Source: a virus. Taken from it: a stretch of DNA of 64,000 nucleotides. The notes below the pieces were generated by a model. That model searched no databases and was not told the origin of the DNA. It saw only the letters and a program-made list of their open reading frames with translations. A program made the translations under genes and the position numbers. This document shows, one piece after another, positions 22,066 through 45,965 of this stretch (the stretch's first letter is position 1; every line of letters begins with the position of its first letter). Location of the stretch: IMG/VR virus record IMGVR_UViG_3300044213_000051, positions 23,218-87,217 of that record. One strand, written 5' to 3'.

Positions 22066-25000
22066 TATTTTCTCCAGTTAATTTAGAAATAATATTTTCT
22101 AGTTGTGCGATTCTCGCTTCAAGAGCTGCAACTTTGTCGTCAGTTTGTTTAGAAGCAACTGCAAGAATTGCTGTAGTTTCGCCGTAAGCAACAGAAAGAG
22201 TTCCAGTTCCAGTAGTTAATTTCAAACTGTCGTCAGCTTCTGCTACAAACTCAGAGCATCCATTATCACGTAGAGTTTGTGCTCCATAACCAATAGAAGT
22301 TCTACCTTCACGTTCATATTTAATCGCTGCAGCAGCAAGGGTATTTCTTCTTTCTGTTACATTATCAATCTCACGAACATTATCTTTTAGACGTAAGTCA
22401 GAATATGTTTGAACGAAACCACCGAAAGTAGTGTTGCCATTCATATCTGAGATCATTAACCAACCCCACTGAGGGTTGTAAACACCCCAAGTTCCACCGT
22501 TGGCCATTAATATACAGTTGTTTGGATAAACACCGAAACCACGCCAACCATTTAAACCTGAGCCATATGTTCCCACGTTACCATAACTATATTCGTTATC
22601 AGAAGCACGAATACCACGACCGTAATCTTCCCAGTAAACACCAGTAGCACCTTGACATCTATGCCAGTCGTTTGCGTAAATTCTTGTTCCGTAAACATAA
22701 CCAGTAAATGTTCCACCACCCCATGGCGAGCCAGATGGACCAGTAGGACCTGTTGGACCAGGAGAACCAGCAGGACCTGTCGGACCAGTTGAGCCAGTAG
22801 GACCTGTCGGACCAGGACTACCAGGAGCACCAGTTGGACCAGCCGAACCAGTCGGACCTGTTGGACCTGTTGGACCAGGAGAACCTGTTGCGCCTGTTGG
22901 ACCTGTTAATCCTGTTGGACCAGGAGAACCAGCAGGACCTGTTGGACCTGTTGGACCAGGAGAACCTGTTAATCCTGTTGGACCAGTAGGACCAGTAGGA
23001 CCTGTTGCACCAGTAGGACCTGTCGGACCTGTTGCACCAGTGGCACCAGTTACACCTTGAATACCTTGAGAACCAGTATCAGTGATTGTCCAAGTAGACA
23101 ATGTTCCACTACCACCAACATAATCAACACTGATTGTTAATGTAGTTGCGCTATATGCAGTAATAGCACCAGCGACAAAGTTTGTTGGAGCAGCTGTGTT
23201 AAACGCACGAACGTACTGACCAACAACGAAAGCATTAGTTCCTTGCGCTTGGTTAACTGTAAATGTTTTAGAACCAGTTCCGATAAGAACTGAAGAAGTA
23301 GAAGTTAAACCACCATATCCTAAACCATTGGCGCCAGTTGGACCTGTTGCACCAGCAGGACCTGTTGCGCCTGTTGCGCCTGTTGCGCCTTGTGGACCTG
23401 TTGGACCTGTTGGACCTGTTGCACCAGTGGCACCTGTAGATCCTGTCGGACCTGTTGCACCAGTGGCACCTTGTGGTATAGTAAAGTTTAAAACTGCAGC
23501 AGAAGTTGTTCCGCTATTTGTAACTGTTACGCTTGTTCCAGAAGCACCTGTTGTTACTGTTCCTACAGTAACAGTGGCAGCACTTCCTGTTGGACCTGTT
23601 GCGCCAGTAGGACCTGTTGGACCAGGAGCTCCTGTTGGACCAGTAGGACCTGTTGGACCAGTAACACCAGAAGTGTTTGTCCATTTACTTGTTGTTGAAT
23701 TATAAACAAGTACTTGATTGTTTGTTGGAGATGTTATGCTTACATCTGATAAGTTAGCAACTGGAATAGAAATATTCGCACTACCATCAAATGACACACC
23801 AGCAATGGTACGAGCAGTTGCTAGCTTAGTAGCTGTATCAGCATTACCTGTCAAAGCACCAACGAAGCTAGTAGAAGTAACAGAAGTTAAACCAGCAAGT
23901 GTTGTGCTAGAAGATCCCAGTGCAATCGCAGTAGTACCAACAGTAACAGAACTGTTGGCAAGTGCTGTATTTGGAATAGAACTTAAACGAGCATTCGGTA
24001 AAGTTCCACTAGTAATATTTGATGCGTTGGTAGTATCAGTTGTAGCTGATGCTGCTAGACCAGTAATCTTGCTAGTTGCGATAGAACCAGCAAGCATTGT
24101 ATTTGTTACGGTGCCAGTATCACCTGTTGTAACAACAGTACCAGTGACTGCTGGTATAGTGATAGTATTAGTACCAGCAACGGCAGGAACTTGAACTGTT
24201 ATAGTACCAGAAGTTGATCCGTTAAGTAATAATGTTTTACCTGCTGCTAAAGCTAAATGCTCAGAAGAAGTCCAAGCACCAGTGGCATTATACCAGTTGA
24301 ATGTCTTATCAGTAGTTCCGTGTAGTTTTAAACCACCACCATCAGCTGTAGTATTAGTTGGAGTTGTTACTGTACCAAGTTCGATATTTTTATCTGCAAT
24401 CTGAACAGTTACAGAATTTAGATATTCTGTTGTACCATTAACTGTTAGGTTGCCCGTTACGACTAAGTTTCCACCAAGACTAGTATTTCCTGTTGTAGTA
24501 AGCGCAGCAAATGTCGGAGATGCAGTAGTAGAAATATCTTGAACAGTACTAATAACACCAGTAGTGCTATTATAAGAAATACCAGTACCAGCTGATAGAG
24601 CAGCACGTGCACGTGTATCTGTATAGTAAAGGTTTGTTCCTTCAGCAATATCGCTTGTTGTAGCTGACGCACCAACAGTTGCACGACCCTTAGCATCAAC
24701 AGTAATCTTAGTATAAGTACCAGCAGTTACACCAGAAGAAGCAAGAGTTAAGACAGACGAACCAGCAGAAGTAGTAGCATCACCAGTAAATGCTGGTAAA
24801 CGAGCATTCGGTAAAGTGCCAGAACTAATATTAGAAGCATTAGTAGTATCAGTTGTAGCTGAGGCAGCTAAACCAGTAATTTTACTTGTTGGAATAGAAC
24901 CAGCCAACATAGTGCTAGTAACAGTACCACTGTCAGCTGACGTGATAACAGTACCAGTAACTGCTGGTAGAGTGATAGTATTAGTTCCAGCAATTGCTGT

Positions 25001-32010: not shown

Positions 32011-32652
32011 ATGGACAATATTCAAGCACCCCAAAATGGAACAGGTTCAGCGACTGAAGTTCCATCAGATAAACAGTTAGTTACAAAAACTTTCGAAAAA
32101 CTGTTATTCCCAACCGATATTAAAAGTTTCCAAATTTCGGATTTTGAGGATTTTCAACAGAAACTTTTGACATTTATTCAAAGTGAAGAATGTCAACCAA
32201 AAGATTCTTTAGAGCCGATCGACCCGATTTTTAAAGAAGATGACAGTATCTTCAAACTTCGCGAAATTGTATACTCTATTTGTGAACAATTACCAGAGTT
32301 TAATATACCAGAGCTTCAATACACACCAACTATTATTGGCTCACAGATATTTTATCAACAACAATACGAACACATTCCACCGCATGCGTATGAATTTGTT
32401 CCGTTGGTATTTTCGTTCATTTTGTCATGCCCAGAATCACCCCCAGTAACTTATTATCCAGATACTCGTGGAGCAGTTCAAACAGTTAGAGATACAGTAT
32501 CTCAAAACTTAGTTGCTACTAGTTTCTCTCTGCGTGGATGGCAAGGTGAAGTTATTGTCACACCTGGATATCTACAACGTTATGTGGAAACAAACTTGTC
32601 TGAAAGAACTTACGTTGTTCTTAATGTCAAAATTGGTTTTGCTTCCTATTAA
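32011..32652 (+). CDS. unknown protein, possible inactive 2OG-oxygenase-like fold
   Basis: 213 aa, the only plus-strand gene between 7 and 59 kb. The N-terminal half is acidic and helical. The C-terminal half has a pattern like the last strands of 2OG dioxygenases: VTYYPDTRG, then GWQGEVIVTPGYLQRYVETNLSER and VVLNVKI. Normal family members would have H-x-D at the first site and P-x-x-L-x-H at the second; here they read Y-P-D and L-Q-R, so iron binding is not expected. This reading is tentative. It overlaps the convergent PP-loop gene by 26 nt. Confidence 0.75.
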   Translation: MDNIQAPQNGTGSATEVPSDKQLVTKTFEKLLFPTDIKSFQISDFEDFQQKLLTFIQSEECQPKDSLEPIDPIFKEDDSIFKLREIVYSICEQLPEFNIPELQYTPTIIGSQIFYQQQYEHIPPHAYEFVPLVFSFILSCPESPPVTYYPDTRGAVQTVRDTVSQNLVATSFSLRGWQGEVIVTPGYLQRYVETNLSERTYVVLNVKIGFASY

Positions 32653-33700
32653 ATTTAGCAGTTCGAGGAATGTAGCGTAAGCTATAATCTTCATATAAAA
32701 ATAACCAAGTCGGTATGGGGTTTCCTAAATTGGAAACCCCTTTTGGTTTGTTCCAAGCATAGTAAGAATCTCCACTATACTCCTCAATCAATTGACGCAT
32801 AACCCATCTGTGAGTTAGTGCGTTTCCAACTTCTTTCGTAAATGGTTCTTTGGTTGTAATAACATAACGCTGAAAATCGTCAGTATTAAAAAAGTGATAT
32901 ATGTTATCTTGACGTTTCGTACTAACCATTGACGCAAACTGAGAAGTATACCAATCATAGTTAAAAATACACCACCATCTTAAATCACGCAAAGTTTCAA
33001 TTTTTTTAGGACTTGCCTTTATTGACGGAAGAATAAACTCGTGTAGCTCTGGGTTTATACATTTGGTGTAATCCATCAGTGGATCTGGACCTTTGAACTG
33101 ATGATGGAAAAATGATATATCAGTTTTCACAGTTCCAGTTGTAAAGTCGTCTGTCGGACCAAACAGTTGGTTACCAAAAAACCCTGTTACAAAAATCTCA
33201 TCTTCAGGACAGTCATCAAACTCTCTTCTGGAAGTAACCTTAATTTTATGGTTTACGCCAGATGGTAAGATAACTTTATCAAACATCGAGCCAGATTCTA
33301 ATACAGAACTGTAAGTTCCATAAACAGTAATTCTTGATGGATCTTTCGCGTAGTGAATCAGCGCAAACAGAACCAATGTGCTGTCAATACCACCACTCCA
33401 AACAACGTTAATTTTCTTACCTGTTGCAAGAAGCTCTTCGCAACGTTCTTTAACTATCTGCTCGAACGACTTGTTAAAACCTTCTGGAATTTCTGGTATC
33501 TGTAGCAACCCACCCTTCATATTAAGGTAATGTGGAGTATTACCAGTTCTATCAAACACAACATTCAAATTCATGTTATGTTTCTCATAGAAGTTAAACA
33601 ACTCTATAGCATTATCCGATAGATCGTCAGCAATCGTATCTGGATATTGAGCCATTACTTGTTTAACGTACCCTGTATTATAAAATAAAATTTGTTTCAT
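32627..33700 (-). CDS. PP-loop ATPase, asparagine-synthetase/QueC-like
   Basis: 357 aa N-type ATP pyrophosphatase. The PP-loop SGGIDST is at residues 102-108, after a hydrophobic strand KINVVW, followed by LVLFALIHYA as in amidotransferase synthetase domains. Such enzymes adenylate a carboxyl or carbonyl group before amide, thiol or ring formation. No N-terminal Cys for a glutaminase is present (MKQILFYNTG), so ammonia or another nucleophile would come from elsewhere. Substrate unknown. A strong GAGG stands 5 nt before the ATG. It is last gene of the rSAM/TRAP island, behind its own late octamer. Confidence 0.8.
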   Translation of the reverse strand: MKQILFYNTGYVKQVMAQYPDTIADDLSDNAIELFNFYEKHNMNLNVVFDRTGNTPHYLNMKGGLLQIPEIPEGFNKSFEQIVKERCEELLATGKKINVVWSGGIDSTLVLFALIHYAKDPSRITVYGTYSSVLESGSMFDKVILPSGVNHKIKVTSRREFDDCPEDEIFVTGFFGNQLFGPTDDFTTGTVKTDISFFHHQFKGPDPLMDYTKCINPELHEFILPSIKASPKKIETLRDLRWWCIFNYDWYTSQFASMVSTKRQDNIYHFFNTDDFQRYVITTKEPFTKEVGNALTHRWVMRQLIEEYSGDSYYAWNKPKGVSNLGNPIPTWLFLYEDYSLRYIPRTAKFNRKQNQF

Positions 33701-33758: not shown

Positions 33759-34706
33759 TTAATGTAATTGAATCTTGCTTACAAGACCTGGAGTGAAGTA
33801 GTCAGCAAACTTCTCGTAAACTGCAGAAGTAACTTCTTTGAATTTCTTCTGTTCAGTTTCATCCATGCGAACAACCATAACACCCTTTTCTTCACATTCA
33901 GCTAGAATGTTTGGAATGTCAGCAACTGATTCACGACGCTCTGCACGAGCAGCGTTGAAAGCAGCAGTAGCCATAATTTCTTGAGTTTCTTCATCGAACT
34001 GAGCCATGAAGTCTTTGTTAACAATAATAGAAGTCAAGAACAAGCTGTGGGCAGTGTCATTAACAACCTTGAAAGACTTATATTGGTCAAGTGGGAAAAT
34101 ACGAACGTAAGTAGATTCGCCAGCAGCAATTTCGCCACGATCAGCAAATTCGTTCATTTCTTCTAGAGCGATGTGCTCTTTTGGTTCTGCTCCAAGCAAC
34201 TTAAATGTTTCAACAGCAACAGGGCTACGGCTAGTACGAACAGCTTGACCTTTCCAAGCATCTACAGTGTCAGCCTTAAAGTTAGCTGGAACAACACGAT
34301 AGCCACCAGAGTAAGTGAAAGACATAGCGTGGATATTACTATTCTTAGAAACACCAGCTAACAACTCAGCACCAACTTCACCTTCCAAAACAGCGTCAGC
34401 ATGGGCGTGGTCACGGAATAGGAATGGTAGGTCTAAAGCGTGTAGATCTTTGTTGTAATCAGCCAACCAAGTAGTGTAGATGTGGCTCATTTCGATAGTG
34501 CCATCATCGATCATCTGCATTAGGTCGTTCTTGCTGATTTTCTTGCCATCGTTATACTTAGCTGCATAGTCTGATAAAGAAAGAACTTCAATGTTAAACA
34601 TACCATTGGTTTTTTCGTTAACTTCTTTAGCAAAGTGCTCAGCAACTTTCAAAAACAAGCCAATAGGCTCGTGGGCGATAACCCATTTTACATGTTTTTG
34701 TTCCAT
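33759..34706 (-). CDS. TRAP-type (DctP family) solute-binding protein without signal peptide
   Basis: 315 aa, matching the mature part of TRAP substrate-binding proteins. It begins at the first strand (VKWVIAHEP...AEHFAKEVNEKTNGMFNIEVLSL), has the DLPFLFRD segment, the GGYRVVPANF and VDAWKGQAVRTSRSP segment with the substrate-carboxylate-binding Arg, and LGAEPKEHIALEEMNEF. No signal peptide or lipobox is present. No TRAP membrane subunits lie nearby. A cytoplasmic or virion role is implied. AAGGAG 7 nt before the ATG predicts strong translation; a terminator follows. Confidence 0.85.
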   Translation of the reverse strand: MEQKHVKWVIAHEPIGLFLKVAEHFAKEVNEKTNGMFNIEVLSLSDYAAKYNDGKKISKNDLMQMIDDGTIEMSHIYTTWLADYNKDLHALDLPFLFRDHAHADAVLEGEVGAELLAGVSKNSNIHAMSFTYSGGYRVVPANFKADTVDAWKGQAVRTSRSPVAVETFKLLGAEPKEHIALEEMNEFADRGEIAAGESTYVRIFPLDQYKSFKVVNDTAHSLFLTSIIVNKDFMAQFDEETQEIMATAAFNAARAERRESVADIPNILAECEEKGVMVVRMDETEQKKFKEVTSAVYEKFADYFTPGLVSKIQLH

Positions 34707-35033
34707 TTAAATCTCCTTTTTGTTTCTATGTAGTAGGTACCCAAGTTTAGTTAGGTCCAATATCCAGCTTTCTTCACTACTATTTATCTTATGGTAGATT
34801 ACTGGAATGTTATTTTCGACAATTATTCTTATATATTTATGAACAACTGCTTTTTGCTCCTCACTTCCAACCAACTTAAATTCTGGGATCTGGATAGATA
34901 CATTGTTGTTTTGAAACGACTCTGTAGTTTCTGAATTATGATAGAAAATCCTAGAGATAGTATGTCTATCATAATTCGATCCATATCTTGGAAATTTATT
35001 AACTTCCCAAATATAACAATCTAAAAAAGCCAT
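34707..35033 (-). CDS. hypothetical protein beside radical SAM gene
   Basis: 108 aa from ATG 35033 (MAFLDCYIWEVNKFPRYG), 1 nt after the rSAM stop; a longer frame from 35063 would overlap that gene. The C-terminal half (EEQKAVVHKYIRIIVENNIPVIYHKINSSEESWILDLTKLGYLL) has helix-strand-helix character. It might be a small accessory such as a peptide-recognition domain, but I cannot show this. A late octamer for the TRAP-type gene lies inside its 3-prime end. Confidence 0.65.
   Translation of the reverse strand: MAFLDCYIWEVNKFPRYGSNYDRHTISRIFYHNSETTESFQNNNVSIQIPEFKLVGSEEQKAVVHKYIRIIVENNIPVIYHKINSSEESWILDLTKLGYLLHRNKKEI
34781..34788 (-). promoter_or_regulatory. late promoter octamer GATAAATA inside the 108 aa gene
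   Basis: About 75 nt upstream of the TRAP-type gene and embedded in the upstream reading frame. It is followed by GTAG rather than CTATT. Less certain because it lies in coding sequence. Confidence 0.45.
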
Positions 35034-35034
35034 A

Positions 35035-36504
35035 TTATTGAATAGTCGTTGGAATGCTAACAACTGGAATGTTTACAGGTTTGCGAACTTTCCAAGATTT
35101 CTGTGTACCACCAGATTTCACAAAATCAATGTCAATAACAGGTTGGCTTGTTTGTCCGTCGAATCTGATTTTTTCGCCTTGTATTTCAACCAAAACCAAT
35201 CCATCAGTCATGATAAACATAGAAGCTGCCAGTATTGCCAAATTATACCAATAGAGATTCTCGCATGCTTGACTCCAATATTGATCTTCTAAGAACAGGC
35301 ACGCACCTTGACATAGTTGAACAACTGGACAAGAAGGGCATTCTGCACGAGTTGACCAGTGATATGAGTTCTTCAAACGAACATCTTCTAACTGATCGAT
35401 ATTACCAAGGTTGTGTTTAGTTAGAGAAGAAGTGTTTTGGCAAGTAGTTACGTTACCTTTCATATCGATGGCAATCGTATCTTCTTTATCCATACCACAC
35501 TTTTGACCAACAACAGTAGCTGGTCTTTGGTAAACTAACGATTCAAAAAACCCTTGGATTTTCTGATTAATTGTCCAACTAAACTGATTCTTAAACTCAA
35601 TAGTTTCCCAGAACAACGAATGTAGAATTTCTTTCTTCTCATCTGGCGTTTGAATAGAGTGAGCCATGCCACTATCATCATATGGTAACATCAATTCTTC
35701 TGTTGTTACCTGCAATTCAGTCTGTCCAATTTCAACATAATCATATCCAAGATCTTTACGATTTAATTTTTCTTGAATAAAATCACGAACAGCTGCAATT
35801 GAAACATTCTGACGTGTCAATACACAGTTAAACGTAAATCTCATCTGACCCATTGTTTTTAAAGCATAAACAACAGCATCTTTTGCTTCTGGTTCATCCA
35901 AAGGATCTGGTCCACGGTTCTGAGCATGCAGTGGTCCATCGTGAGACATACCAATAGAGAATCCCATTTGATTGAACCAATCAATCTTTTCTCGTGTTAA
36001 TAGTGAGCCATTAGTCACCATCATAAACTGCGCATTAGGATAAACCTTACGAATCTTTTCCGCCAATGGTTTTAGAGTTTTCCAATAAACCATTGGTTCA
36101 CCACCCCAAAATTCCAAACGGAATCTATCATAAGTGCTAAACTTAAAATTATTTTTAATCTTTTGAACAAGTTCTTCAGCATCCTCTGGACCACCAACTG
36201 GATCGTGTGGTTGATGTGCCTGATTGCAATATGAGCAAGCGTAGTTACACTTAAGACCCATAGTAATTTTTAGAGTTGCTGGTTTATCTGACTTCTTACC
36301 CCAGAGATCTGGGTTATGTGGATTGGTTATTTTAGCAGGTTCCCATTTTTTAGCAGTTACCTGATATTCTAATCCGTTTGAAATGTGAGTCAATGTAGGT
36401 TTAGTGCCATCCGATTCCCAATAAACTTCAGAAGTCATTGGATCATACACTAATGTTTCTTTCACATCATTTGATCCTTGTAGGATCAACTTATATTTAC
36501 TCAT
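35035..36504 (-). CDS. radical SAM enzyme with SPASM domain (peptide-modifying type)
   Basis: 489 aa. The [4Fe-4S] AdoMet motif C-x3-C-x2-C is at C86, C90 and C93 (LKCNYACSYCNQAH), with the GGEP motif at residues 134-137. The C-terminal SPASM domain has seven Cys in the standard spacing: C336, C355, C389-x2-C392-x5-C398-x3-C402, C414, which would hold two more clusters. Known SPASM enzymes (anSME, PqqE, sactipeptide maturases) modify peptides or proteins. The N-terminal 75 residues are an extra domain without motifs. AAAGGA stands 5 nt before the ATG, behind a late octamer, so it is made with virion proteins. A Cys-rich protein is encoded two genes upstream. Confidence 0.92.
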   Translation of the reverse strand: MSKYKLILQGSNDVKETLVYDPMTSEVYWESDGTKPTLTHISNGLEYQVTAKKWEPAKITNPHNPDLWGKKSDKPATLKITMGLKCNYACSYCNQAHQPHDPVGGPEDAEELVQKIKNNFKFSTYDRFRLEFWGGEPMVYWKTLKPLAEKIRKVYPNAQFMMVTNGSLLTREKIDWFNQMGFSIGMSHDGPLHAQNRGPDPLDEPEAKDAVVYALKTMGQMRFTFNCVLTRQNVSIAAVRDFIQEKLNRKDLGYDYVEIGQTELQVTTEELMLPYDDSGMAHSIQTPDEKKEILHSLFWETIEFKNQFSWTINQKIQGFFESLVYQRPATVVGQKCGMDKEDTIAIDMKGNVTTCQNTSSLTKHNLGNIDQLEDVRLKNSYHWSTRAECPSCPVVQLCQGACLFLEDQYWSQACENLYWYNLAILAASMFIMTDGLVLVEIQGEKIRFDGQTSQPVIDIDFVKSGGTQKSWKVRKPVNIPVVSIPTTIQ

Positions 36505-36526
36505 GCTATTCCTTTAATATAAATGA

Positions 36527-36558
36527 AAATACCCTGCTTTATCTTACACAGGGTATTT
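36527..36558 (-). terminator. 10 bp hairpin between structural protein and rSAM
   Basis: AAATACCCTG, 12 nt loop, CAGGGTATTT, then a T-rich stretch on the minus strand. It overlaps the late octamer of the rSAM gene, so promoter and hairpin share bases. Moderate terminator; it could work from both sides. Confidence 0.6.
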
Positions 36559-36561
36559 AGC
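36554..36561 (-). promoter_or_regulatory. late promoter octamer GCTAAATA (rSAM gene)
   Basis: 50 nt upstream of the rSAM ATG and overlapping one arm of the hairpin. It starts the rSAM-108 aa-TRAP unit. Confidence 0.6.
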
Positions 36562-36570
36562 CACTAGAAA

Positions 36571-37602
36571 TTAAACCAGTGTAATCATTAACTCAGCAAA
36601 AGTTAATTGTGGTCCACAGTTTAATTTAAATTTGATAAAATCACCAGCTGAAAGTTTGTTGTCAACGATAACGTCTTCGTATCCAGCAAATCTTGAGGGA
36701 AGATTATTTAGACCAAGATATGTGAAATCTGGAGCTACTTGACCAGTTCGTACCCCAGAAGTTAATCGAGTTTTAGATGGTGTTCCATTTACACAATTTA
36801 TATCGAATGTTACTGGTAAAGTTTTATCTGGTATTCCACTCTGATATACAACTCTAAACTTATATTCAGGATTGGTCGGTAAAGAAATTGCAAATTGTCC
36901 GCCAGCAAATTTTTGTGGATCTACCCCAGGCATAACGAATGTTGATGGAACCATACTTAAAGGGACTTCAGTGGTAACAACATTATTATTAGCGTCAAGA
37001 ATTTGGAAAATGATATTTACTATATAGTTCATAGCGATATCTTTAATTCTGTCTTTGGTAGACATTTCAACTGGTGCTGGTGTAGTAGCAGAGTCTATTA
37101 CTGTTGCGTGTGGTGATCCATCTTCAATAACATGGAATGTTAAAACACTAGCAGAAAAATCAGTTACTGTTCCATAAAATGATTCAATTTGAAAACATGG
37201 AAACAATTTTTCGCTTTGTCTTGCTTGAATGTCACTCCAAATAGTATGATGAGATGTACTAGAATTTATTAGTGTTTGAGTATACGATAGAACATTAAAT
37301 GGGTCGTTGATCGTTTCAGTTTCAGCGTCAAACTCAACGATCCAAGCCATATTGTCTGTATACTGAACAAAATCTGCTGGAGTGAACGCTCTTGTAGCTA
37401 CAGTTGTATATGTAATTGGAGCGTCTACAGCAGAATTTAAGTCTGGTTTAACTAGTTTATCAACAGTAAGGTTGATTGTTTTAGTACTATCAACATATCC
37501 CATTGTTACTCTATAGTTAGAATTAACCGCAAGAACACCCTGTGGGTATGATGTTTGACTAGGATCAAATCCTACGATTGGTGTTTTATAGATTTTATAC
37601 AT
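36571..37602 (-). CDS. hypothetical structural protein
   Basis: 343 aa, beta-rich, no signal peptide. Begins MYKIYKTPIVGFDPSQTSYPQG; the middle reads like Ig/jelly-roll strands (EYKFRVVYQSG, LPVTFDINCVNG). It ends GDFIKFKLNCGPQLTFAELMITLV. Three Cys only. It sits between the Cys-rich protein and the hairpin that precedes the rSAM gene, in the same unit as the S74 fibre. Best guess is a virion surface protein, by location. Confidence 0.7.
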   Translation of the reverse strand: MYKIYKTPIVGFDPSQTSYPQGVLAVNSNYRVTMGYVDSTKTINLTVDKLVKPDLNSAVDAPITYTTVATRAFTPADFVQYTDNMAWIVEFDAETETINDPFNVLSYTQTLINSSTSHHTIWSDIQARQSEKLFPCFQIESFYGTVTDFSASVLTFHVIEDGSPHATVIDSATTPAPVEMSTKDRIKDIAMNYIVNIIFQILDANNNVVTTEVPLSMVPSTFVMPGVDPQKFAGGQFAISLPTNPEYKFRVVYQSGIPDKTLPVTFDINCVNGTPSKTRLTSGVRTGQVAPDFTYLGLNNLPSRFAGYEDVIVDNKLSAGDFIKFKLNCGPQLTFAELMITLV

Positions 37603-37615
37603 TTATATTCCCTAA

Positions 37616-37987
37616 TTAGCAGTTACAGTTGCATGCGCAGTTACAGTTGCAATTACAGTTGCAATTACAGTTTACGCGATAGTAACGGAACATACCAAGA
37701 GACTGTTCTTGAGAATCGTGACGCATACCAGCACCATTATATGCACCATTGGCGAAGATGTTAATACGCCAGTCTGTAGTATATATGTTTAAGGGGATTG
37801 GTCCTGGATTACAGTTACCACAGTTACAGTTACAAGCTGTGTTACATGCGTTACATGCGCAGTTCCAGTTACAGTTACCGTTAGAATCATTCACATAACG
37901 TGCGCCAACGTCACCCTGCCATCCCCAGAAAATACCGTTAAGGTCGGTACCACCCGAATTTCTAAATCCAACCGCTGCTACTGGCAT
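37616..37987 (-). CDS. Cys-rich Asn-Cys repeat protein, possible rSAM substrate
   Basis: 123 aa with 17 Cys. Cluster 1 is at residues 39-59 (C39, 43, 45, 48, 52, 54, 56, 59). Cluster 2 is at residues 107-123, an almost pure Asn-Cys alternation ending at the C-terminus (C107 to C123, every second residue). Between them is an ordinary aromatic/Gly-rich stretch. No other protein in the window has this composition. Its ATG is 1 nt after the S74 fibre stop, with GGAG upstream, so the two are coupled. Options: substrate of the nearby SPASM enzyme, metal-binding protein, or disulphide-linked fibre tip. No catalytic motif. Confidence 0.8.
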   Translation of the reverse strand: MPVAAVGFRNSGGTDLNGIFWGWQGDVGARYVNDSNGNCNWNCACNACNTACNCNCGNCNPGPIPLNIYTTDWRINIFANGAYNGAGMRHDSQEQSLGMFRYYRVNCNCNCNCNCNCACNCNC

Positions 37988-37988
37988 A

Positions 37989-39179
37989 TTATTTCTCCAA
38001 GTTTTCTAATCGAGTATTTAACTCTTTAATAGTTTCGTTTTGTTCTTTAATTGCTTCAATCAGTAAACCAACGATGTTAGCATAGGCAACAGATTTGAAT
38101 CCCTCGGAGTCTTCTCCGACTAAGAAAGGCATAACTCTTTCTACTTCCTGGGCGATTAAACCGATTTCTGGTTTACCTTGTTTCAGATAGGAAACGCCAC
38201 GCAATTGTAAAACAGTGTCTACGGCATTATTTAGCGTTTGTACGTTCTCTTTTAATCGTTGGTCAGAAGAAATCTGGAATCCGCCAGCATAAACAGTTCC
38301 ACCAACACTTTCGTTACCATTAACAGTATTGCTTCCTGTAAAGGTGTTATTAGCGTTTAGACGTGGAATATTAGAACCAACGTTAATTGTTGGATTACCA
38401 GCAACACCATCTGGATTGCTAATAGTAATATCTGATCCAGCAGCCAAAGTTCTTGGAACGATTGTGTTAGTTGCTGTTCTGGCAACCAAGCCAGTTGTAG
38501 ATAAGTTAGCGTAAGCTGTTAACTCTGCGCTGAATGGTTGAACGTCTGTACCAACACGAGTACCTAAAACTGCCTGAGCACCAGAAGTCGATGTTGTGGC
38601 AATAAGAGATCTGGCATAAGAAGTTAGCGATGCTGTTGTTAGGGTATTAGCACCATTAAAATAAACAACCTGATCAGCTGCACCAGAAATCCCTGATAAT
38701 GAGTCTAGTTTTGTGTTCCACGCTTGGACGTTTGTTCCGATAATCAATCCAAGATTGGCACGAGCATTTGACGCATTAGTTGCGCCAGTACCACCAACGG
38801 ATACAGGAATAGAACCACCGCTAATTGAAATTGAACCAACCGACAAAGAACCAGTAAATGTAGCATTTACACCAGTAATGTTATTTGTTGAGGTTAAATT
38901 GTAGAATGTAGAGCTACCTGTAGAATCGCGAGTAACTACAGAACTGTAATTTGGACCAGTTGGTAATGATGGATTGGATTGCAATCCTTGTAACAAATCA
39001 GCGTCTAAACCAGATCCAACACCATCAACAGTCTCCAATTGCGTAATAATGTTATGCGCATTAAAGTCTGTGATTAATACTCTTGTCTGAATATCTGCGT
39101 TTAGGTTTGTGAAGTTGGCATCAACTTCATTATTTGTTAGGGGTGAACCCTTAGATTGTCTTAAAACGAGTGTCGCCAT
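37989..39179 (-). CDS. tail fibre with S74 chaperone domain
   Basis: 396 aa. Start ATLVLRQSKGSPLTNNEVDANFTNLN is a widespread phage fibre N-terminus. The body contains ARANLGLIIGTNVQAWNTKLDSLSG-type segments found in many tail fibres. The C-terminal about 100 residues start SSDQRLKENVQTL and continue PEIGLIAQEVERVMPFLV, a canonical S74 chaperone with the Ser-x-x-Arg-Leu-Lys motif; it ends in a coiled coil. Second S74 protein of the window. Confidence 0.85.
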   Translation of the reverse strand: MATLVLRQSKGSPLTNNEVDANFTNLNADIQTRVLITDFNAHNIITQLETVDGVGSGLDADLLQGLQSNPSLPTGPNYSSVVTRDSTGSSTFYNLTSTNNITGVNATFTGSLSVGSISISGGSIPVSVGGTGATNASNARANLGLIIGTNVQAWNTKLDSLSGISGAADQVVYFNGANTLTTASLTSYARSLIATTSTSGAQAVLGTRVGTDVQPFSAELTAYANLSTTGLVARTATNTIVPRTLAAGSDITISNPDGVAGNPTINVGSNIPRLNANNTFTGSNTVNGNESVGGTVYAGGFQISSDQRLKENVQTLNNAVDTVLQLRGVSYLKQGKPEIGLIAQEVERVMPFLVGEDSEGFKSVAYANIVGLLIEAIKEQNETIKELNTRLENLEK

Positions 39180-39193
39180 TGTTTTCCCTTAGT

Positions 39194-39436
39194 TCAGCGA
39201 TCTTTAATTAACAGCAAAAGCATCTGTTTAATCTCAGAAATATCTGCCTTTATATTATTTATTTGTTCTGTATGTTGAGAAAGAACCTCTGATTCGCGTA
39301 AACGCTTCTCGTGTTCTTCTTTCATTTTTAGATAATTTTCATACTCGGTCTTGTTAGTATTTAGGATTGCTCCTGTACTTGTATCTCTAACAAGACCCGT
39401 ATGACCCTCAACCTTCAAAAATTTAACATTATGCAC
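39194..39436 (-). CDS. hypothetical coiled-coil protein
   Basis: 80 aa. The first 25 residues hold a short conserved-looking strand pair (VKFLKVEGHTGLVRDTSTGAIL). The rest is a charged coiled coil (YENYLKMKEEHEKRLRESE; ADISEIKQMLLLLIKDR). The start overlaps the end of the giant DUF4815-type gene by 8 nt. Likely a small virion or assembly protein; function unknown. Confidence 0.75.
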   Translation of the reverse strand: MHNVKFLKVEGHTGLVRDTSTGAILNTNKTEYENYLKMKEEHEKRLRESEVLSQHTEQINNIKADISEIKQMLLLLIKDR

Positions 39437-42400
39437 AAGAAATTACTCTAAAATCTTTTAGTTTAGGAACCGCACAAGTATTTGTGGATTGTAGAACAAT
39501 CTTAACAACAATTGTGTCATATGGTGCAGTATTTTGAGCTGTGTATGTAACATCCGTAAACGATGGGTCGCCGAACTGAACATTAGGTAATGTGCCAGCG
39601 TCTGGAGTCAACAATGTGTATGGAGTTGTAGCCAATTGACTGCTATCACCTAAACAAGTCTTATAGTAAACCAATACGTTAGCCTGTGTAGGAATGTTCG
39701 CACCGAACATAACACGAGTATAAGTCGATTGTGCCGCCAACTTAATAGGAGTTGTTACATATTTGCTTATTGTAGAACTTCCAGTTGGAGCAATCTCATC
39801 AACGAACAACTGTTTGTAAGAAACTGTTGTTCCAGTTGCACCAGCTTCGCTAGTGAAAGTTCCGCTAACAGTTAAAGTACCTGTTCCGCTAGAACCAGAA
39901 GCAAAGTTTCCAGGATTTGTGTCACTGTAACCAGTAACTAGAACAGTCTGACTATTGCTTGACGTTGTAGCACCACTGATAACAACATAACTACCAACAG
40001 GAATAGTTGCTAAAGCAGCACGAACTGCGTAGTTAGTAGAAGTTATTGTGTTACCAGAGAAACTAAATGCTCCAGTTGCGCCAGTAAACACAGGAAGAAT
40101 ATCAAGAACAGCAAGGTCAGTTGTTGCTGGATTTGGTACGTTTACGCTATTAGAAATAGCAATCATACTTGTTCTAGTTGTATCAATAACAGGAGATACT
40201 GCGTCATTTGATGTAGTCAATTGAGCAGAGAATGTTAATGATTTGGCACCAGACAAATATGTTGTTTCATTAATCTTAGAAGCAATAATTCTTGGAGCAG
40301 TAAAGTTATTGTTATTGTAAGTCAAACAAGGGCTAAAGTTAGAATCAACAACATATGGAGTTTCACTACCACTAATTGATTGACCAGAAGTAGTCTTAAC
40401 TGAGAACGTACTTGTTGTCAATGGGAATGTCTGCATTTGAACTGTTGGATTGATAACATCAAACTTGATGTTCTTAGATGCACGATATCCATTGCCACCA
40501 ACATAACCAGCAATCGTTGCGTTAGTTGTTGATGTAATAGTATAGCTATCTTTCAACACGTTACTAATTGAATGAGTTCCTAGAATCTGAGAAGCAGGAA
40601 TTCCGTTTAGAGGATTGATGAAATTACCTAAAGTATATGATGATAATGCTTCAGTTGCATTTGCTGTTAGTGTTAAAGTAGTGTTATTAGCAATAGCAGC
40701 AACCTGACCGATTAAAGTCATATTGTTGTCGTATAAACAAGAACCAACAACTAATTGGGTAGTGAAAGAAGTTCCAGTTCCAGAAACAGTGTTTGATGTT
40801 ACTGAAGTTGTAATAGTTCCAGACAAGTTTTGAGCAGCATTTAAACCATCGATAGTTACCATTGAAGCTGGTGGCATACCGTGATCATAGTGCCATACAC
40901 GAACACTGTTTGTGCCAACACCAGTTTGGAACGGATTAGTTTCCAACATACTCAATGGAACTTGGTCGTTGGTAAATTGTACGTTACCAACTACGTTCGT
41001 GTTAAACACAGCACGATTAATTGTAAACTTAATGTCACGATTCTGGTCAGGAGTCCAAGTAGAAGCATTCTGAGACAAGAACATTACACCAGCATATGGC
41101 TGTTCAGTAATAACTGTGTCAGTTCCTGGAACAGTATCTCCCATGTTAGAAACCCAAACATTATACGCATTTGAGTCAGAACGTAGAACGAAGCAATATT
41201 CAGTTTGATCTTCTACGTAAACTGGAGATTCGAATGTAAATCTTGTTGCAGTATCGTATGATGGCCAAGAACTTCCATCTGGTAGAGTTACGCTATTTGA
41301 AGACAGATTAACTTGATCTGGAGTTAATGTAACTGTACTGAAAGGTAATGTCAACGAACCTGGACTTCCATCAACCATATTGCGCATTGATAGAGTTACT
41401 GGAATGTTTGAATCTTTTGATGCGAAGAAAACATCAATAGAAGTTAAGAACGCACCACCTGGAGAAGAGATGTAGAAAGACTCAGCCAGTGGGTCGAACC
41501 AACCAGTGTCAGAAAGAACGTTGTTTGCAACAGAGTAAATTGTTTGATTAGCAGTTACCTGTTCTTGAACAATCTGTGCGTTTTGAACAGCATTAACAGA
41601 TTTCTGTTTAGTTTCAAGAGTTCCGTCAGCAACATAAGTCGAAGCGGCACGAGATGTATACTGACCAGCGTAAGTATTCACATCTAATAATTTGAATTCT
41701 CTTGATCCAGTTCTGAACGATAGAGTTGAATTGTTTGGAATATCAAACAAGAAGTTTACTTGACCTAATTTGTTTGTAATTAAATCTGTAGTAGATGGAA
41801 TAGAAATTGATGTAACATTACCAACTGCGTTGCTTACAGAACCAGTAATAACTTCGTTGGTAATAAACGTACCTTTAATGTTTACCAATTCCATTACTAA
41901 TGCGTTATTAGATGAATAGTCAATGTAAGTATTAACAACAACTGCAGTTGCGCCAGAAGTAGCACCTTTAACTACGTCTCCGAGGTTTAAACAAACTTGA
42001 GTGTCACCATCAATTTGACGAGCAACATCAGTTACAGAAGCACCAACATTTGTTTTATAATCAAATGTTCCTGATGTTACTGTATAAACCATTTTAGCTG
42101 ATGGAGTGCAGTAAGAATCAACTGCGATACCATCAAAATATGGATAGAATTTAGTAGAAGGTTTTAGTCCATGGACTTGAACTAATACATGTCTTGAGCG
42201 AATGTAAGGAATAACCGCAGTAGAAACGATGTTGTTACCAACAACCTGATAATCTGTTTGTAGTTCAATTGATGTTTGAGTACCAGTTCTTGTCTGACCG
42301 ATTGGCGTTGCTGTGGTCTCAACTTTAACAATACGGTGAGCCCAGCCACCAAGAGCACCAGCAGAACCTGGACCAACTAAAGCAGAAAGAGCAGCATCAG

Positions 42401-45400
42401 AGATGTTAGAAACAGTTCCCCAACCACGTGAGTCGGCAACACCAACACCACGTTTATCGGCAATGTAAGTTGTATCGCCTGTTGTTACTGGAACACCAGT
42501 CCACTGAGTTTGCCAAGCATTCCAAACAGTTCCCAGAATACCAGCTTTTTCAGAAATAGCTAGCATTGTGTTATAGTTGCCCATAACAGTTTGAATAACA
42601 TCTGGTAATTGATTTACCTCAAACCAATCATCATTTGGTGGGTTAAGGTTCATCACACCCAAGAATGAGAAGATCGCGAATGGGTTAATATTTTCTAACT
42701 GAGAAGCAAACTGCTGAGTGATGAATGGTGTAGTTGTGTATGGCAATGTGATAATATCGCCAGTAATTTGGTAATTTGACGCAGCACGTTGCGCATTGTT
42801 AGAATTTAATTCTACAAGATTAATGTTATCTGCTGTGTAGAATGGACGAAGTTGGTTATTCGCCATATCAATAGAGCAGAAATAATCAACGTTATTAGTG
42901 TCGCCGATGTTATTACCACTAAAGTTATCTACAATAAAACCATTCTTGAATCTGTTTAAACCACTGCTGTCAGTAGTCTGCATAGACTGAGTAGATTGTT
43001 CAAGCAATGATAAAGAAGTATAATACTCTAAGTTATTGATGCGTTTTTCTAACTTACCAATATCTAACATTGTGTAACGTTGGTTTTCAACTTTAGTTGG
43101 AGAAACGCTACTTGAATTAATATTATAAACATATGGCTCCATCGCTACGCTGTAAATTACCATACCATTTGATGGGTCTGCTGGAGCTGCTGGAGTTAAA
43201 GATGGAACACCTTGAATGTCAAAGAAGTTACCATTGATATCAAGAGCAATTTTATCTGTTCTCGGTAGGTAGTAGCTATAATCTGCTGCTAAATCAATAC
43301 CACGTTTTGGTGTTGGTGTATAAGAAGCACCAGTACCAACGAACACAGTCCCTTGACCAACAGCATAATCAGCAACACGTGGACGGAAGTCAATAGCATC
43401 GCGCAGGTTTGGTGGAATATCTGTATAACCAATACTGCTGTAAGAGTTAACAGTAAAGAAGTCCCCTTGACCGTGCGAGAAGTATTGATATGTTACTTGG
43501 ATTGGAGCAGTTGGTGCATTGTATGATGTTTTTAGAATCAATGAACCCAAACCATAATACTCGTTAGTCTGGCCATTATTAAACTGATAATTGTCTAATA
43601 GGCTGGTTACCCATTGAGTACTAGTTGGGCTAGAACCCCATGCTTGACCATCAGCTTGCTTAATACTGATGATACGATATACGTCAGCATTAGGAAGAGT
43701 AATAATTGGAGCTTGGGCAGTTGATGCAGTATTATATGTTACACTAACTGTGTTTAGAGTTTTAGACTTTTCGTTACCAGTTCCAGTACGAATAACGGCA
43801 CCAACTACACTATAAGTATGTCCGTTAGTTACACCTGAAACAGTTAAGTTTGTTCCAGAGATTGTAACTTGACTAATTGTTGGATTGATAGCCAAACCAG
43901 TTGTGTTATCCATAAACACATAGTTACCAATCCCAGCATAAGATGAGAAAGTACCAGACGATGTTGTGAATGTTACAACACCAGAAGCAGCAGTTGACGT
44001 GTATTTTTCGTAACAAGTATAAGATAATGTGTTCGCACCAGTAGAACTACGAATTGAATTGATACCGTAGTATGGCAGAGGGAAAATTAAAGAGTTTGTA
44101 TTTGGTTCTAGGATTGTAGCAGTAAATTCTGCATAAGCAACACCAGAAACAGTAGGTCCAGCAGCTGCCAATGTAATAGATGTTTGGCTATTAATAGCAG
44201 AAACTTTAACGTAAGACTGAGCAGATCCTGGATTAACGATAATTGTATCACCAACATTCAAATCAGTCTGGAAGGAAGTTCCTACACCAGTAACAGCAGT
44301 TCCAGAAATAGAGATTGAACCAGTCAATTTCTCGATTGTTGGGTAAACGTCTGCAGTAAAACCAGTTCCTGTATATGTAAATTGTTTTACGTTATCATAG
44401 AATGATTTACCTTGGTTCATTTGAACGTTGAATAAACCAAGTTTATAAACTGTAGATTGGTCATATGGAACATCACCACTATGATATTCAATATAACGAA
44501 TGCGAGCAGTACCAACAGCAGTACCACCAGAAGGAACTGTACCTAATGTTGATGTTACTGTGTCATATAGCGTAACTTGAGCATATGTATCAATCGGAGG
44601 TAGACCAGAGATATTTTTAACTAAAACATAGTTACCAACATCATCTGGACCTGGAATGATTGAAGCAGTTAGCTGTACAGTAGTTCTTGGTTTCGGTACA
44701 GTCAAATATGTTGTATTGACTTTAGAAATCTCATAACCTTGAACGTATGCTTTACCAGCCTCAAGACCAATAGATAAACTATTTGGGTCGCCATTTAAGT
44801 AGATACCACGATTGTAATTTGGATTGTCGGTATATAACCAATTGATGCCAGTGTTTGATGGACCGTCGTATGAAGTTCCTACAGTTTGGGTAGGAGCAGT
44901 AGTTACTGAAGTTCCACTATTTTGAGCTACATATGTATAACCATTGTTGGTAACAACATCGTCAATCAAATATGCTGTATTCGGAGTCCATTGACCACGA
45001 TTATTATTTCTGTTTTCACGAACATCAATTAAAAAGTCAGTAACAGTATAGTTACCAGCTTGGTCATAAGTTCTACGAGCAAGTTCAACTGATGGACCAG
45101 AGTAAGCAGTTGTGTTAGTTAATGTAAAAATCGCACCATCAGTTACACGGATTAATTCAATGAAAGACTTATCAGTCGTGTCATTTAATCCATATTTAAC
45201 CAATTTGAGTTCGATATAATAACGATGCGCACCTGGAGCAGCATAGTTATATGAGTTCTGAGCATTATCTAATAAAGTTGAATCTTCTTCAGGAGTAATA
45301 ATTTGTTCGCTGAAAATTAGACCAATCTTGTAAGAAGGAGTATTATCGTACTTATCTAGAAGAATAGTTTGTGGCTCACACAGACAGAAATAACCATTGA

Positions 45401-45965
45401 AATAATAAACACCAATTGCAATAGAAGCAGAAGAGCCCAAGCCAGTAGCTGTAGGATTGGCACCTGAAATATACGTTCCGATTGCTTGGAATGAGTAAGT
45501 TCCATCAGAAGTAGTGATTACTTCACCGTCTTGGAAAACTTTATCTGTGTTATTACTACCAGAGTTGGTATAATTAACGTAGATTGTTGTTGGATCGCCG
45601 TTGGCTTGACTTTGTGTTAAAACTACTTGAGCAGTTAGACCTGTTTGTTGACCGATAACTGTCGCACCATTAAGGTTCGATAAAAATGTTTCTACAGCAA
45701 CACCATTATATAACGCTTGAAGTTTTACGTAGCTAAGACCTTTTCCTGGCTGAGTGGATGTAAGAATAGATGCTTGTCCAGGAATAACCATCGCACCTTG
45801 CTGGAAAACGCTGTCACCAAAACGCTTAATTTGGTTTTGGAGAATACTCTGCATTTGAGTAAGTTCGCGAGCCTGAACAGCGAACGAAGGGCGATAAAGA
45901 ATTCTATAAAACTTTTTAGCCTCATCAAAGTCGTCATTATACGGTTCGGTATTGAAATCTATCAT
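39429..45965 (-). CDS. giant virion protein, DUF4815-type
   Basis: 2178 aa, the largest gene here. N-terminus MIDFNTEPYNDDFDEAKKFYRILYRPSFAVQARELTQMQSIL followed by FGDSVFQQGAMVIPG is the DUF4815 pattern found next to baseplate genes of marine T4-like phages. The rest is a long series of beta-rich Thr/Ser/Asn modules, including a helical NNLEYYTSLSLLEQSTQSMQTTD segment near residue 970. Location after gp8, where T4 has gp9/gp10, suggests a baseplate-periphery or fibre-anchor protein; equivalence to gp10 is not shown. A late octamer is 28 nt upstream. Confidence 0.8.
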   Translation of the reverse strand: MIDFNTEPYNDDFDEAKKFYRILYRPSFAVQARELTQMQSILQNQIKRFGDSVFQQGAMVIPGQASILTSTQPGKGLSYVKLQALYNGVAVETFLSNLNGATVIGQQTGLTAQVVLTQSQANGDPTTIYVNYTNSGSNNTDKVFQDGEVITTSDGTYSFQAIGTYISGANPTATGLGSSASIAIGVYYFNGYFCLCEPQTILLDKYDNTPSYKIGLIFSEQIITPEEDSTLLDNAQNSYNYAAPGAHRYYIELKLVKYGLNDTTDKSFIELIRVTDGAIFTLTNTTAYSGPSVELARRTYDQAGNYTVTDFLIDVRENRNNNRGQWTPNTAYLIDDVVTNNGYTYVAQNSGTSVTTAPTQTVGTSYDGPSNTGINWLYTDNPNYNRGIYLNGDPNSLSIGLEAGKAYVQGYEISKVNTTYLTVPKPRTTVQLTASIIPGPDDVGNYVLVKNISGLPPIDTYAQVTLYDTVTSTLGTVPSGGTAVGTARIRYIEYHSGDVPYDQSTVYKLGLFNVQMNQGKSFYDNVKQFTYTGTGFTADVYPTIEKLTGSISISGTAVTGVGTSFQTDLNVGDTIIVNPGSAQSYVKVSAINSQTSITLAAAGPTVSGVAYAEFTATILEPNTNSLIFPLPYYGINSIRSSTGANTLSYTCYEKYTSTAASGVVTFTTSSGTFSSYAGIGNYVFMDNTTGLAINPTISQVTISGTNLTVSGVTNGHTYSVVGAVIRTGTGNEKSKTLNTVSVTYNTASTAQAPIITLPNADVYRIISIKQADGQAWGSSPTSTQWVTSLLDNYQFNNGQTNEYYGLGSLILKTSYNAPTAPIQVTYQYFSHGQGDFFTVNSYSSIGYTDIPPNLRDAIDFRPRVADYAVGQGTVFVGTGASYTPTPKRGIDLAADYSYYLPRTDKIALDINGNFFDIQGVPSLTPAAPADPSNGMVIYSVAMEPYVYNINSSSVSPTKVENQRYTMLDIGKLEKRINNLEYYTSLSLLEQSTQSMQTTDSSGLNRFKNGFIVDNFSGNNIGDTNNVDYFCSIDMANNQLRPFYTADNINLVELNSNNAQRAASNYQITGDIITLPYTTTPFITQQFASQLENINPFAIFSFLGVMNLNPPNDDWFEVNQLPDVIQTVMGNYNTMLAISEKAGILGTVWNAWQTQWTGVPVTTGDTTYIADKRGVGVADSRGWGTVSNISDAALSALVGPGSAGALGGWAHRIVKVETTATPIGQTRTGTQTSIELQTDYQVVGNNIVSTAVIPYIRSRHVLVQVHGLKPSTKFYPYFDGIAVDSYCTPSAKMVYTVTSGTFDYKTNVGASVTDVARQIDGDTQVCLNLGDVVKGATSGATAVVVNTYIDYSSNNALVMELVNIKGTFITNEVITGSVSNAVGNVTSISIPSTTDLITNKLGQVNFLFDIPNNSTLSFRTGSREFKLLDVNTYAGQYTSRAASTYVADGTLETKQKSVNAVQNAQIVQEQVTANQTIYSVANNVLSDTGWFDPLAESFYISSPGGAFLTSIDVFFASKDSNIPVTLSMRNMVDGSPGSLTLPFSTVTLTPDQVNLSSNSVTLPDGSSWPSYDTATRFTFESPVYVEDQTEYCFVLRSDSNAYNVWVSNMGDTVPGTDTVITEQPYAGVMFLSQNASTWTPDQNRDIKFTINRAVFNTNVVGNVQFTNDQVPLSMLETNPFQTGVGTNSVRVWHYDHGMPPASMVTIDGLNAAQNLSGTITTSVTSNTVSGTGTSFTTQLVVGSCLYDNNMTLIGQVAAIANNTTLTLTANATEALSSYTLGNFINPLNGIPASQILGTHSISNVLKDSYTITSTTNATIAGYVGGNGYRASKNIKFDVINPTVQMQTFPLTTSTFSVKTTSGQSISGSETPYVVDSNFSPCLTYNNNNFTAPRIIASKINETTYLSGAKSLTFSAQLTTSNDAVSPVIDTTRTSMIAISNSVNVPNPATTDLAVLDILPVFTGATGAFSFSGNTITSTNYAVRAALATIPVGSYVVISGATTSSNSQTVLVTGYSDTNPGNFASGSSGTGTLTVSGTFTSEAGATGTTVSYKQLFVDEIAPTGSSTISKYVTTPIKLAAQSTYTRVMFGANIPTQANVLVYYKTCLGDSSQLATTPYTLLTPDAGTLPNVQFGDPSFTDVTYTAQNTAPYDTIVVKIVLQSTNTCAVPKLKDFRVISCA

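Follow-up and report, generated by a model that had tools for sequence, protein, structure and literature searches.

Why would a phage keep a radical S-adenosylmethionine (rSAM) enzyme in its tail-fiber gene cluster, and what would this enzyme act on? The question is raised by a 64,000-nucleotide stretch (positions 23,218 to 87,217; hereafter the window) of the 87 kb IMG/VR virus record IMGVR_UViG_3300044213_000051, in which a minus-strand cassette encodes a small Cys-rich protein that ends in Asn-Cys repeats (the NC protein), a second protein called here the partner, and an rSAM enzyme with a SPASM domain. The available data make it probable that the phage matures the tips of its own tail fibers, with the SPASM enzyme acting on Asn-Cys and probably forming Cys-to-Asn thioethers. 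A first-pass annotation of the window had already proposed that the Cys protein is a fiber tip and the target of modification by the enzyme; both ideas are now strongly supported by co-occurrence of the genes in both directions, by fusions of NC tails to tail fibers, and by the CteB-like predicted fold of the enzyme, while nothing specific backs the other option raised there, a cluster-bearing tip. The cassette comprises:

37616-37987, minus strand: NC protein, putative fiber tip and proposed substrate; 123 aa, 17 Cys
37619-37672, minus strand: C-terminal Asn/Ala-Cys run of the NC protein, residues 106-123; ends directly at the stop codon
37811-37873, minus strand: second Cys cluster of the NC protein, residues 39-59, 8 Cys; kept in close relatives
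36571-37602, minus strand: partner with an immunoglobulin (Ig)-like C-terminal domain; 343 aa, recurrent family
35035-36504, minus strand: rSAM/SPASM enzyme of the phrog_1802 family; 489 aa
36226-36249, minus strand: radical-SAM [4Fe-4S] motif C86-x3-C90-x2-C93; invariant in 51 sequences
35263-35499, minus strand: SPASM domain with Cys 336, 355, 389, 392, 398, 402 and 414; invariant in 51 sequences

The 17 Cys residues noticed at first inspection fall into two groups, with eight in the stretch 39-59 and nine among the final 18 residues. The latter group forms the C-terminus NCNCNCNCNCNCACNCNC, that is, (NC)6-AC-(NC)2, directly before the stop codon; its codons switch between the synonyms AAC/AAT and TGT/TGC, which argues that the run is not a simple DNA repeat and that selection acts on the protein. 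Among close relatives, defined as loci with an rSAM identity of at least 71%, NC proteins are 46-73% identical, and the cluster at residues 39-59 is conserved, with partial deletions in L010, L013, and L035 (L numbers denote individual loci). Annotated phages yielded no close protein match to the 123 aa protein, since it is the tail that is conserved and the bodies vary; scanning for the codon pattern got round this.

How tightly are the NC protein and the enzyme linked? The rSAM query retrieved 26 viral loci. NC protein homologs are present in 16 of the 16 close loci that reach this gene (L002, L004-L018) and also in L033 and L035; at loci with only 34-39% rSAM identity (L001/L025 from phage JWF, L019, L020, L021, L022, L026, L027), unrelated proteins bear the same type of tail. 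A reverse scan, in which the enzyme was ignored, sought the codons of NCNCNCNC (four Asn-Cys pairs) in 2.9 million viral contigs. The first 80 loci yielded 60 in-frame C-terminal ORF matches, 50 of them accompanied by an rSAM gene; the other ten have at most 2.7 kb of downstream sequence each. Where at least 3.1 kb is available downstream, the rSAM gene is found in 41/41 cases, always downstream and on the same strand, and the same flank threshold gives 22/23 for the remaining 39 loci (63/64 for both batches). Among the first 80 loci, the pattern lies outside a C-terminal ORF at 20, and an rSAM gene is present at one of these (Fisher p = 3e-10 for C-terminal versus not, with near-identical contigs kept). 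With a neighboring tail protein as bait and sufficient downstream sequence, both genes occur at 21 loci, neither at two (where other proteins follow the fiber), and one without the other at none (p = 0.004). Seen from the enzyme side, dereplication at 80% identity leaves 93 rSAMs, and for 78 of these an NC protein is encoded no more than 7 kb upstream, while three more lack upstream sequence; in the enzyme tree, NC-less rSAMs are strongly clustered and three changes suffice. Since the loci are partly related, their counts are not independent, and more weight belongs to the tree and to the set dereplicated at 80% identity. The two genes form a nearly obligate pair, and these sequence comparisons argue strongly for a substrate link between the two proteins. 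Co-occurrence in related phages had been chosen in advance as the refutation test, and its outcome was favorable: L033 and L035 have the rSAM gene, and relatives without an NC tail are also without the rSAM.

Several apparent exceptions were rejected: L033 and L035, candidates for NC loci without rSAM, carry the enzyme 5 kb downstream; L266 and L274, candidates for the reverse, encode proteins that end in NCRCNC; and at L050 a 17-Cys NC protein, seemingly lacking, is encoded directly downstream of the rSAM.

But is the NC protein a part of the virion? NC tails terminate very different bodies, which form 86 clusters (some spurious; 79 by a stricter filter), and in 65 of the 86 just 0-3 residues follow the run; across these clusters, the residue that alternates with Cys is Asn 233 times, Ala 51, Asp 34, and Gln 9. 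Many bodies are full tail fibers by PHROG profile (L075, phrog_5073, E 2e-70, with collagen repeats; L065, L066, and L054), so that in homologous systems with fused fibers the NC tail is part of a predicted tail-fiber C-terminal domain. Placement in the virion rests on these gene fusions, which show it for other phages. The N-terminus of the NC protein in the window, ATGFRxSxGTDL, matches a block that follows the fiber shaft in L019 and L066 (17 aligned columns, hhalign 94.6%); by this short match and by synteny, the protein looks like a tail-fiber tip that has been split off as its own gene. The gene directly upstream encodes a tail fiber with an S74 domain, syntenic in close relatives at 45-68% identity. 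This neighbor supports the tail-fiber context and bears out the earlier view that the genes lie amid fiber genes.

Sequence beyond the run is often a Hint domain that starts at the last Cys (CFPAGT...; JWF, 2-1, L173, L174, L177, L181, L183, L204); the Pfam score exceeds its cutoff in JWF but stays under it in L177, L204, and L149. Cleavage by Hint would leave the NC run as the mature C-terminus. Hint lies exactly behind the NC run of the fiber at L001:12844-14295, L177:1857-3476, and L204:5709-7235. Fibers ahead of the rSAM in Achromobacter phages carry NCNCDCNCNCSC (JWF) and NCNCDCNCSC (2-1). Small NC proteins come in other arrangements too. At L103, L135, L151, L058, and L205 they stand in tandem, with different bodies and one rSAM behind, as if they were alternative tips; at L045, L086, L051, L094, and L110, proteins of 67-79 aa combine the motif HTH(I/L/V)F(Y/F)DDY with a following NCNCNCNC, and three or more consecutive rSAM-like ORFs lie downstream at L045 and L086. 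Pairs of desaturase-like membrane proteins (GWHNNHHA) are encoded between the NC gene and the rSAM at L033:12308-13815, L035:12116-13626, and L125.

Is Asn merely a spacer between the Cys residues? A purely structural alternation does not predict Asn in front of isolated Cys. Among 219 Cys outside the runs, Asn occupies position -1 in 67% of cases versus a 9.6% background, with little enrichment at -3 (14%) or +1 (17%). We infer that Asn-Cys is the unit of recognition or modification.

What chemistry might the enzyme perform on this unit? The full motif set read from the sequence at the outset holds: C86-x3-C90-x2-C93, WGGEP at 133-137, and seven SPASM Cys, with all ten Cys invariant in 51 relatives. 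The protein belongs to the radical SAM superfamily (PF04055, 40.3 bits, cutoff 29.5; CX3CX2C invariant in the 51) and has a SPASM domain with the layout C336-x13-G350-x4-C355...C389-x2-C392-x5-C398-x3-C402...C414 (TIGR04085, 36.5 bits, cutoff 27; Pfam PF13186 alone stays under its cutoff); its PHROG match is phrog_1802 (E=1.8e-63). An AlphaFold2 model built from 51 aligned relatives has a predicted local distance difference test (pLDDT) score of 93.4, and Foldseek ranks CteB first among PDB structures (5WHY, E 3e-14), followed by anSMEcpe, ChlB, TigE, SuiB, and SkfB; a sequence profile search returns TigE, CteB, and anSME. In the phage enzyme, the position of anSME Cys261 is empty and Gln356 stands at that of Asp277, the catalytic base of anSME. 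In anSME, auxiliary cluster I (Aux I) is ligated by Cys255, 261, 276, and 330, and CteB has an open Aux I site that is filled by a substrate Cys (PMC6231123). Lacking the Cys261 equivalent, the phage enzyme can offer Aux I three Cys, like CteB, and this cluster may thus be incompletely ligated, or open.

Ranthipeptide enzymes link Cys to a beta-carbon, that of Asn in NxxcA and that of Asp in freyrasin (PMC8326336), and QhpD introduces three thioethers into a protein subunit (PMC7876137). Together with the CteB-like fold, the three-Cys Aux I, and the lack of an extra Cys, these precedents make a thioether the leading chemistry for the enzyme. By association, the process would start with a fiber-tip protein that ends in Asn-Cys repeats, either separate, as in the window, or fused to the shaft; in some phages, a Hint domain behind the repeat would cleave itself off and expose it. 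Very likely, the rSAM encoded a few genes downstream then acts on these units inside the infected cell, ahead of virion assembly. A carbon radical would be generated on Asn (or on Ala or Asp in its stead), and the sulfur of Cys, positioned by the incompletely ligated Aux I, would close the thioether, with a loss of 2 Da per link. The stapled tip would be a rigid, reduction-proof fiber end on which the Ig-like partner, fast-evolving and probably the protein in contact with the receptor, is carried or presented; in subsets of phages, 2-oxoglutarate (2OG) oxygenases and a second rSAM may decorate the tip.

Other readings account for parts of the same evidence. SPASM enzymes catalyze many reactions, and joining an Asn to the adjacent Cys would demand an unusual 6- or 7-membered ring; the enzyme could thus modify Asn-Cys without making a thioether, through C-C coupling, functionalization of the Asn beta-carbon, or desaturation or decarbonylation of Cys. 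This is unlikely, however, given that Cys is constant while X varies among N, A, and D, and that the nearest solved fold is a thioether synthase. Formylglycine formation on a tip Cys by an anSME-like dehydrogenase would agree with the second-best fold match, anSMEcpe, and with the annotation of the enzyme from Achromobacter phage JWF, yet it is made highly improbable by Gln356 in place of the base Asp277, the missing Aux I ligand Cys261, a TIGR03942 score of 65.7 bits versus a cutoff of 349 for the anSME equivalog, and the sulfatase-free record: as stated at first reading, no sulfatase is encoded, and none was found in the whole record. The strict alternation of the run would also suit an epimerase that acts on alternate residues to produce a D/L-alternating, polytheonamide-like beta-helical tip, and rSAM epimerases are able to modify every other residue; but such enzymes need a conserved Cys as hydrogen donor (PMC8326336), whereas all ten invariant Cys of the phage enzyme are assigned to clusters, and isolated NC pairs outside the alternating runs are kept as well, so that epimerization has a similarly slim chance.

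Might the enzyme work elsewhere, or the protein leave the cell? CXC is a good metal ligand, and on a trimeric strand the thiols of alternating Cys would come to lie in a stack, which would allow the NC tail to serve as a metal- or Fe-S-binding ladder on the trimer axis while the rSAM acts on something else; this we consider very unlikely, since it would leave both the near-obligate rSAM and the Asn at -1 of isolated Cys unexplained. We give least credence to the idea that the NC protein gives rise to a peptide that is secreted or released, such as an antimicrobial or superinfection factor, rather than forming part of the virion: a small Cys-rich protein does sit beside a RiPP-type (ribosomally synthesized and post-translationally modified peptide) maturase, and bacterial relatives of the enzyme adjoin small ORFs, but in many phages a full tail fiber ends in the NC tail, Hint fusions keep this tail on the fiber, and the cassette shows no exporter or peptidase.

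The preferred reading, thioether maturation of fiber tips, has several observations against it. L145 is an NC locus without an rSAM within 3.6 kb. Twelve rSAMs have no NC protein despite adequate flanks; as they are mostly bacterial relatives, the enzyme family is not exclusive to NC tips. Ala replaces Asn at ~14% of CXC positions, and Asn lies at -1, unlike the -3 of the NxxC spacing in NxxcA, which would imply either a new ring or another acceptor. The enzyme scores below every NCBIfam equivalog cutoff, those of the PapB/CteB type included (NF047865, 66.6 versus 340; TIGR03974, 47.5 versus 425). The open Aux I rests on Cys counting, and the invariant Asp339 could be a ligand. Finally, residues 1-63 of the model are strands and coil with no helices; there is no RiPP recognition element (RRE) and no obvious leader to account for substrate recognition. 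A more far-reaching version, in which a dedicated, leader- and RRE-free radical-SAM chemistry on adjacent Asn-Cys creates a new cross-linked fiber-end material with an unprecedented ring (adjacent or between trimer chains) and represents a general class of radical-matured virion structures, can be put forward only tentatively.

What is already known of this kind? CteB and the SCIFF/ranthipeptide and sactipeptide maturases (PapB, AlbA, NxxcA) are likewise seven-Cys SPASM rSAMs with Cys-rich ribosomal substrates; their substrates are small leader-core peptides, whereas here it would be a phage tail-fiber tip, and the phage system has no RRE, exporter, or protease and places Asn directly before Cys. 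The anSME enzymes share the overall fold and the CGM...G-x4-C SPASM layout but have Asp277, an eighth Cys, and a sulfatase, all three missing from the phage system. The family phrog_1802 ("radical SAM domain-containing protein" in JWF and 2-1) is the same enzyme family, and those phages also have NC tails followed by Hint, but no function is assigned to it and the tail link is not annotated. The tips of T4 gp37 and P2 gpV are metal-stabilized through a repeated short motif, HxH with iron, and have no modifying enzyme; they resemble the NC tips as fiber or spike tips stabilized by a short repeat and differ in relying on HxH-iron without an enzyme. QhpD, which acts on QhpC of quinohemoprotein amine dehydrogenase, is an rSAM that installs several Cys-to-Asp/Glu thioethers in a structural subunit encoded nearby (PMC7876137), but its substrate is a subunit of a bacterial enzyme and has a 28-residue leader, and the phage rSAM scores 60.6 versus a cutoff of 453 on TIGR03906. 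Pelagimyophages have radical SAM cassettes in the host-recognition region, with no substrate linked to them (PMC7029224). Among curated families, none beyond phrog_1802 names this enzyme, and searches of the open-access literature found no description of an NC tail-rSAM pair, which is not proof of absence, as subscription papers and preprints were largely outside their scope.

We would rate the system as a known kind of chemistry, in which SPASM enzymes mature Cys-rich ribosomal substrates, transferred to the fiber tips of virions; an adjacent Asn-Cys ring, if it proves real, would be categorically new. If the proposal is correct, we know of no earlier case in which a dedicated radical-SAM enzyme matures a virus particle. 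Virions would be finished in a new way, and by a family that environmental phages and prophages commonly carry. The phrog_1802 enzymes would gain a function, the striking repeat shared by otherwise unrelated fibers would be explained, and protein tips could be stapled in a redox-proof manner. The cultured phages JWF, which has been characterized together with its host (PMC3899368), and 2-1 make the question testable, and the isolated-Cys statistic offers enzymologists a defined target, the Asn-Cys dipeptide.

What does the intervening gene contribute? The rSAM gene had been placed two genes from the Cys protein; the spacing is right, but the 343 aa partner gene (36571-37602) between them had been overlooked. 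By single-linkage clustering, the partner family occurs in 65 of the 78 loci that combine NC protein and rSAM; its groups are joined mainly via the C-terminal 50 residues, and the protein of the window is linked to the largest group at hhalign 92.7%. It is the fastest-evolving member of the cassette, with 27-37% identity among close relatives versus 71-89% for the rSAM. In its AlphaFold model (pLDDT 80), Foldseek matches only unnamed phage proteins; against solved structures, there is no full-length match and only a partial Ig-like overlap, and the L022 partner has weak similarity to Big_1. Fast change at a fiber tip fits a receptor-contacting adhesin, and the partner is probably a fast-evolving tip adhesin or a chaperone. 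Accessory genes vary among the 78 loci: 2OG oxygenases of the PF13759 (33 loci) and PF13640 (nine) types, an ATPase-like AANH protein (11), and a second rSAM (six).

The cassette is surrounded by:

37989-39179, minus strand: tail fiber with an S74 intramolecular chaperone domain; 396 aa, PF13884 and tail-fiber PHROGs
39429-45965, minus strand: very long tail protein; phrog_358
34707-35033, minus strand: small accessory protein 3' of the rSAM; start uncertain, with a longer TTG-start ORF at 34707-35063
33759-34706, minus strand: DctP-like tripartite ATP-independent periplasmic (TRAP) solute-binding protein; PF03480, E 3e-41
32627-33700, minus strand: ATPase-like protein with an SGGIDS motif; weak asparagine-synthase/QueC/LarE similarity

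Read along the minus strand, the order is phrog_358 tail protein, S74 fiber, NC protein, partner, rSAM, small ORF, DctP-like protein, and ATPase-like protein. The small ORF is syntenic in close relatives and missing from L033 and L035; a scan with the neighboring 213 aa protein as query gave no matches. The cassette was also said to lie behind late promoters, a claim that fails: the exact T4 late consensus octamer TATAAATA occurs once in the window, at 15354, nowhere near these genes, versus 5.75 occurrences expected by chance. Being scarcer than chance, it suggests that the phage probably uses another late-promoter sequence.

The DctP-like gene places a periplasmic-type binding protein inside a virion cluster. 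Its product begins straight at the mature domain, with no obvious signal peptide, and is 73-90% identical in the close relatives that have it, a conservation on par with that of the rSAM; it is also encoded downstream of the rSAM in L266 and L274. The SGGIDS ATPase-like protein adjoins the rSAM in 11 of the 78 non-redundant loci, with examples at L020:10196-11203 and L049:2049-3071, and is possibly another tip-modifying enzyme.

How far does the system extend? It reaches beyond T4-like phages to siphophages and to prophages of many Proteobacteria. The rSAMs of Achromobacter phages JWF and 2-1 are 36% identical to that of the window, and distant matches (22-29% identity) occur in Campylobacter and Erwinia phages. 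A profile scan of 84,980 bacterial and archaeal genomes found 80 loci, many with an NC fiber upstream, in Alpha-, Beta-, and Gammaproteobacteria and other phyla; several lie on contigs of metagenome-assembled genomes, which makes these host labels soft. Bacterial rSAMs without NC proteins are found in Bacteriovoracaceae and, beside a large protein and small ORFs, in Variovorax/Ramlibacter. At L217, L227, L232, and L236 (Ramlibacter, Variovorax, and relatives), the NC-less rSAM lies downstream of a ~770 aa protein, and at L217 and L227 a small ORF (65-118 aa) separates the two; these four loci are candidates for undescribed RiPP-like clusters.

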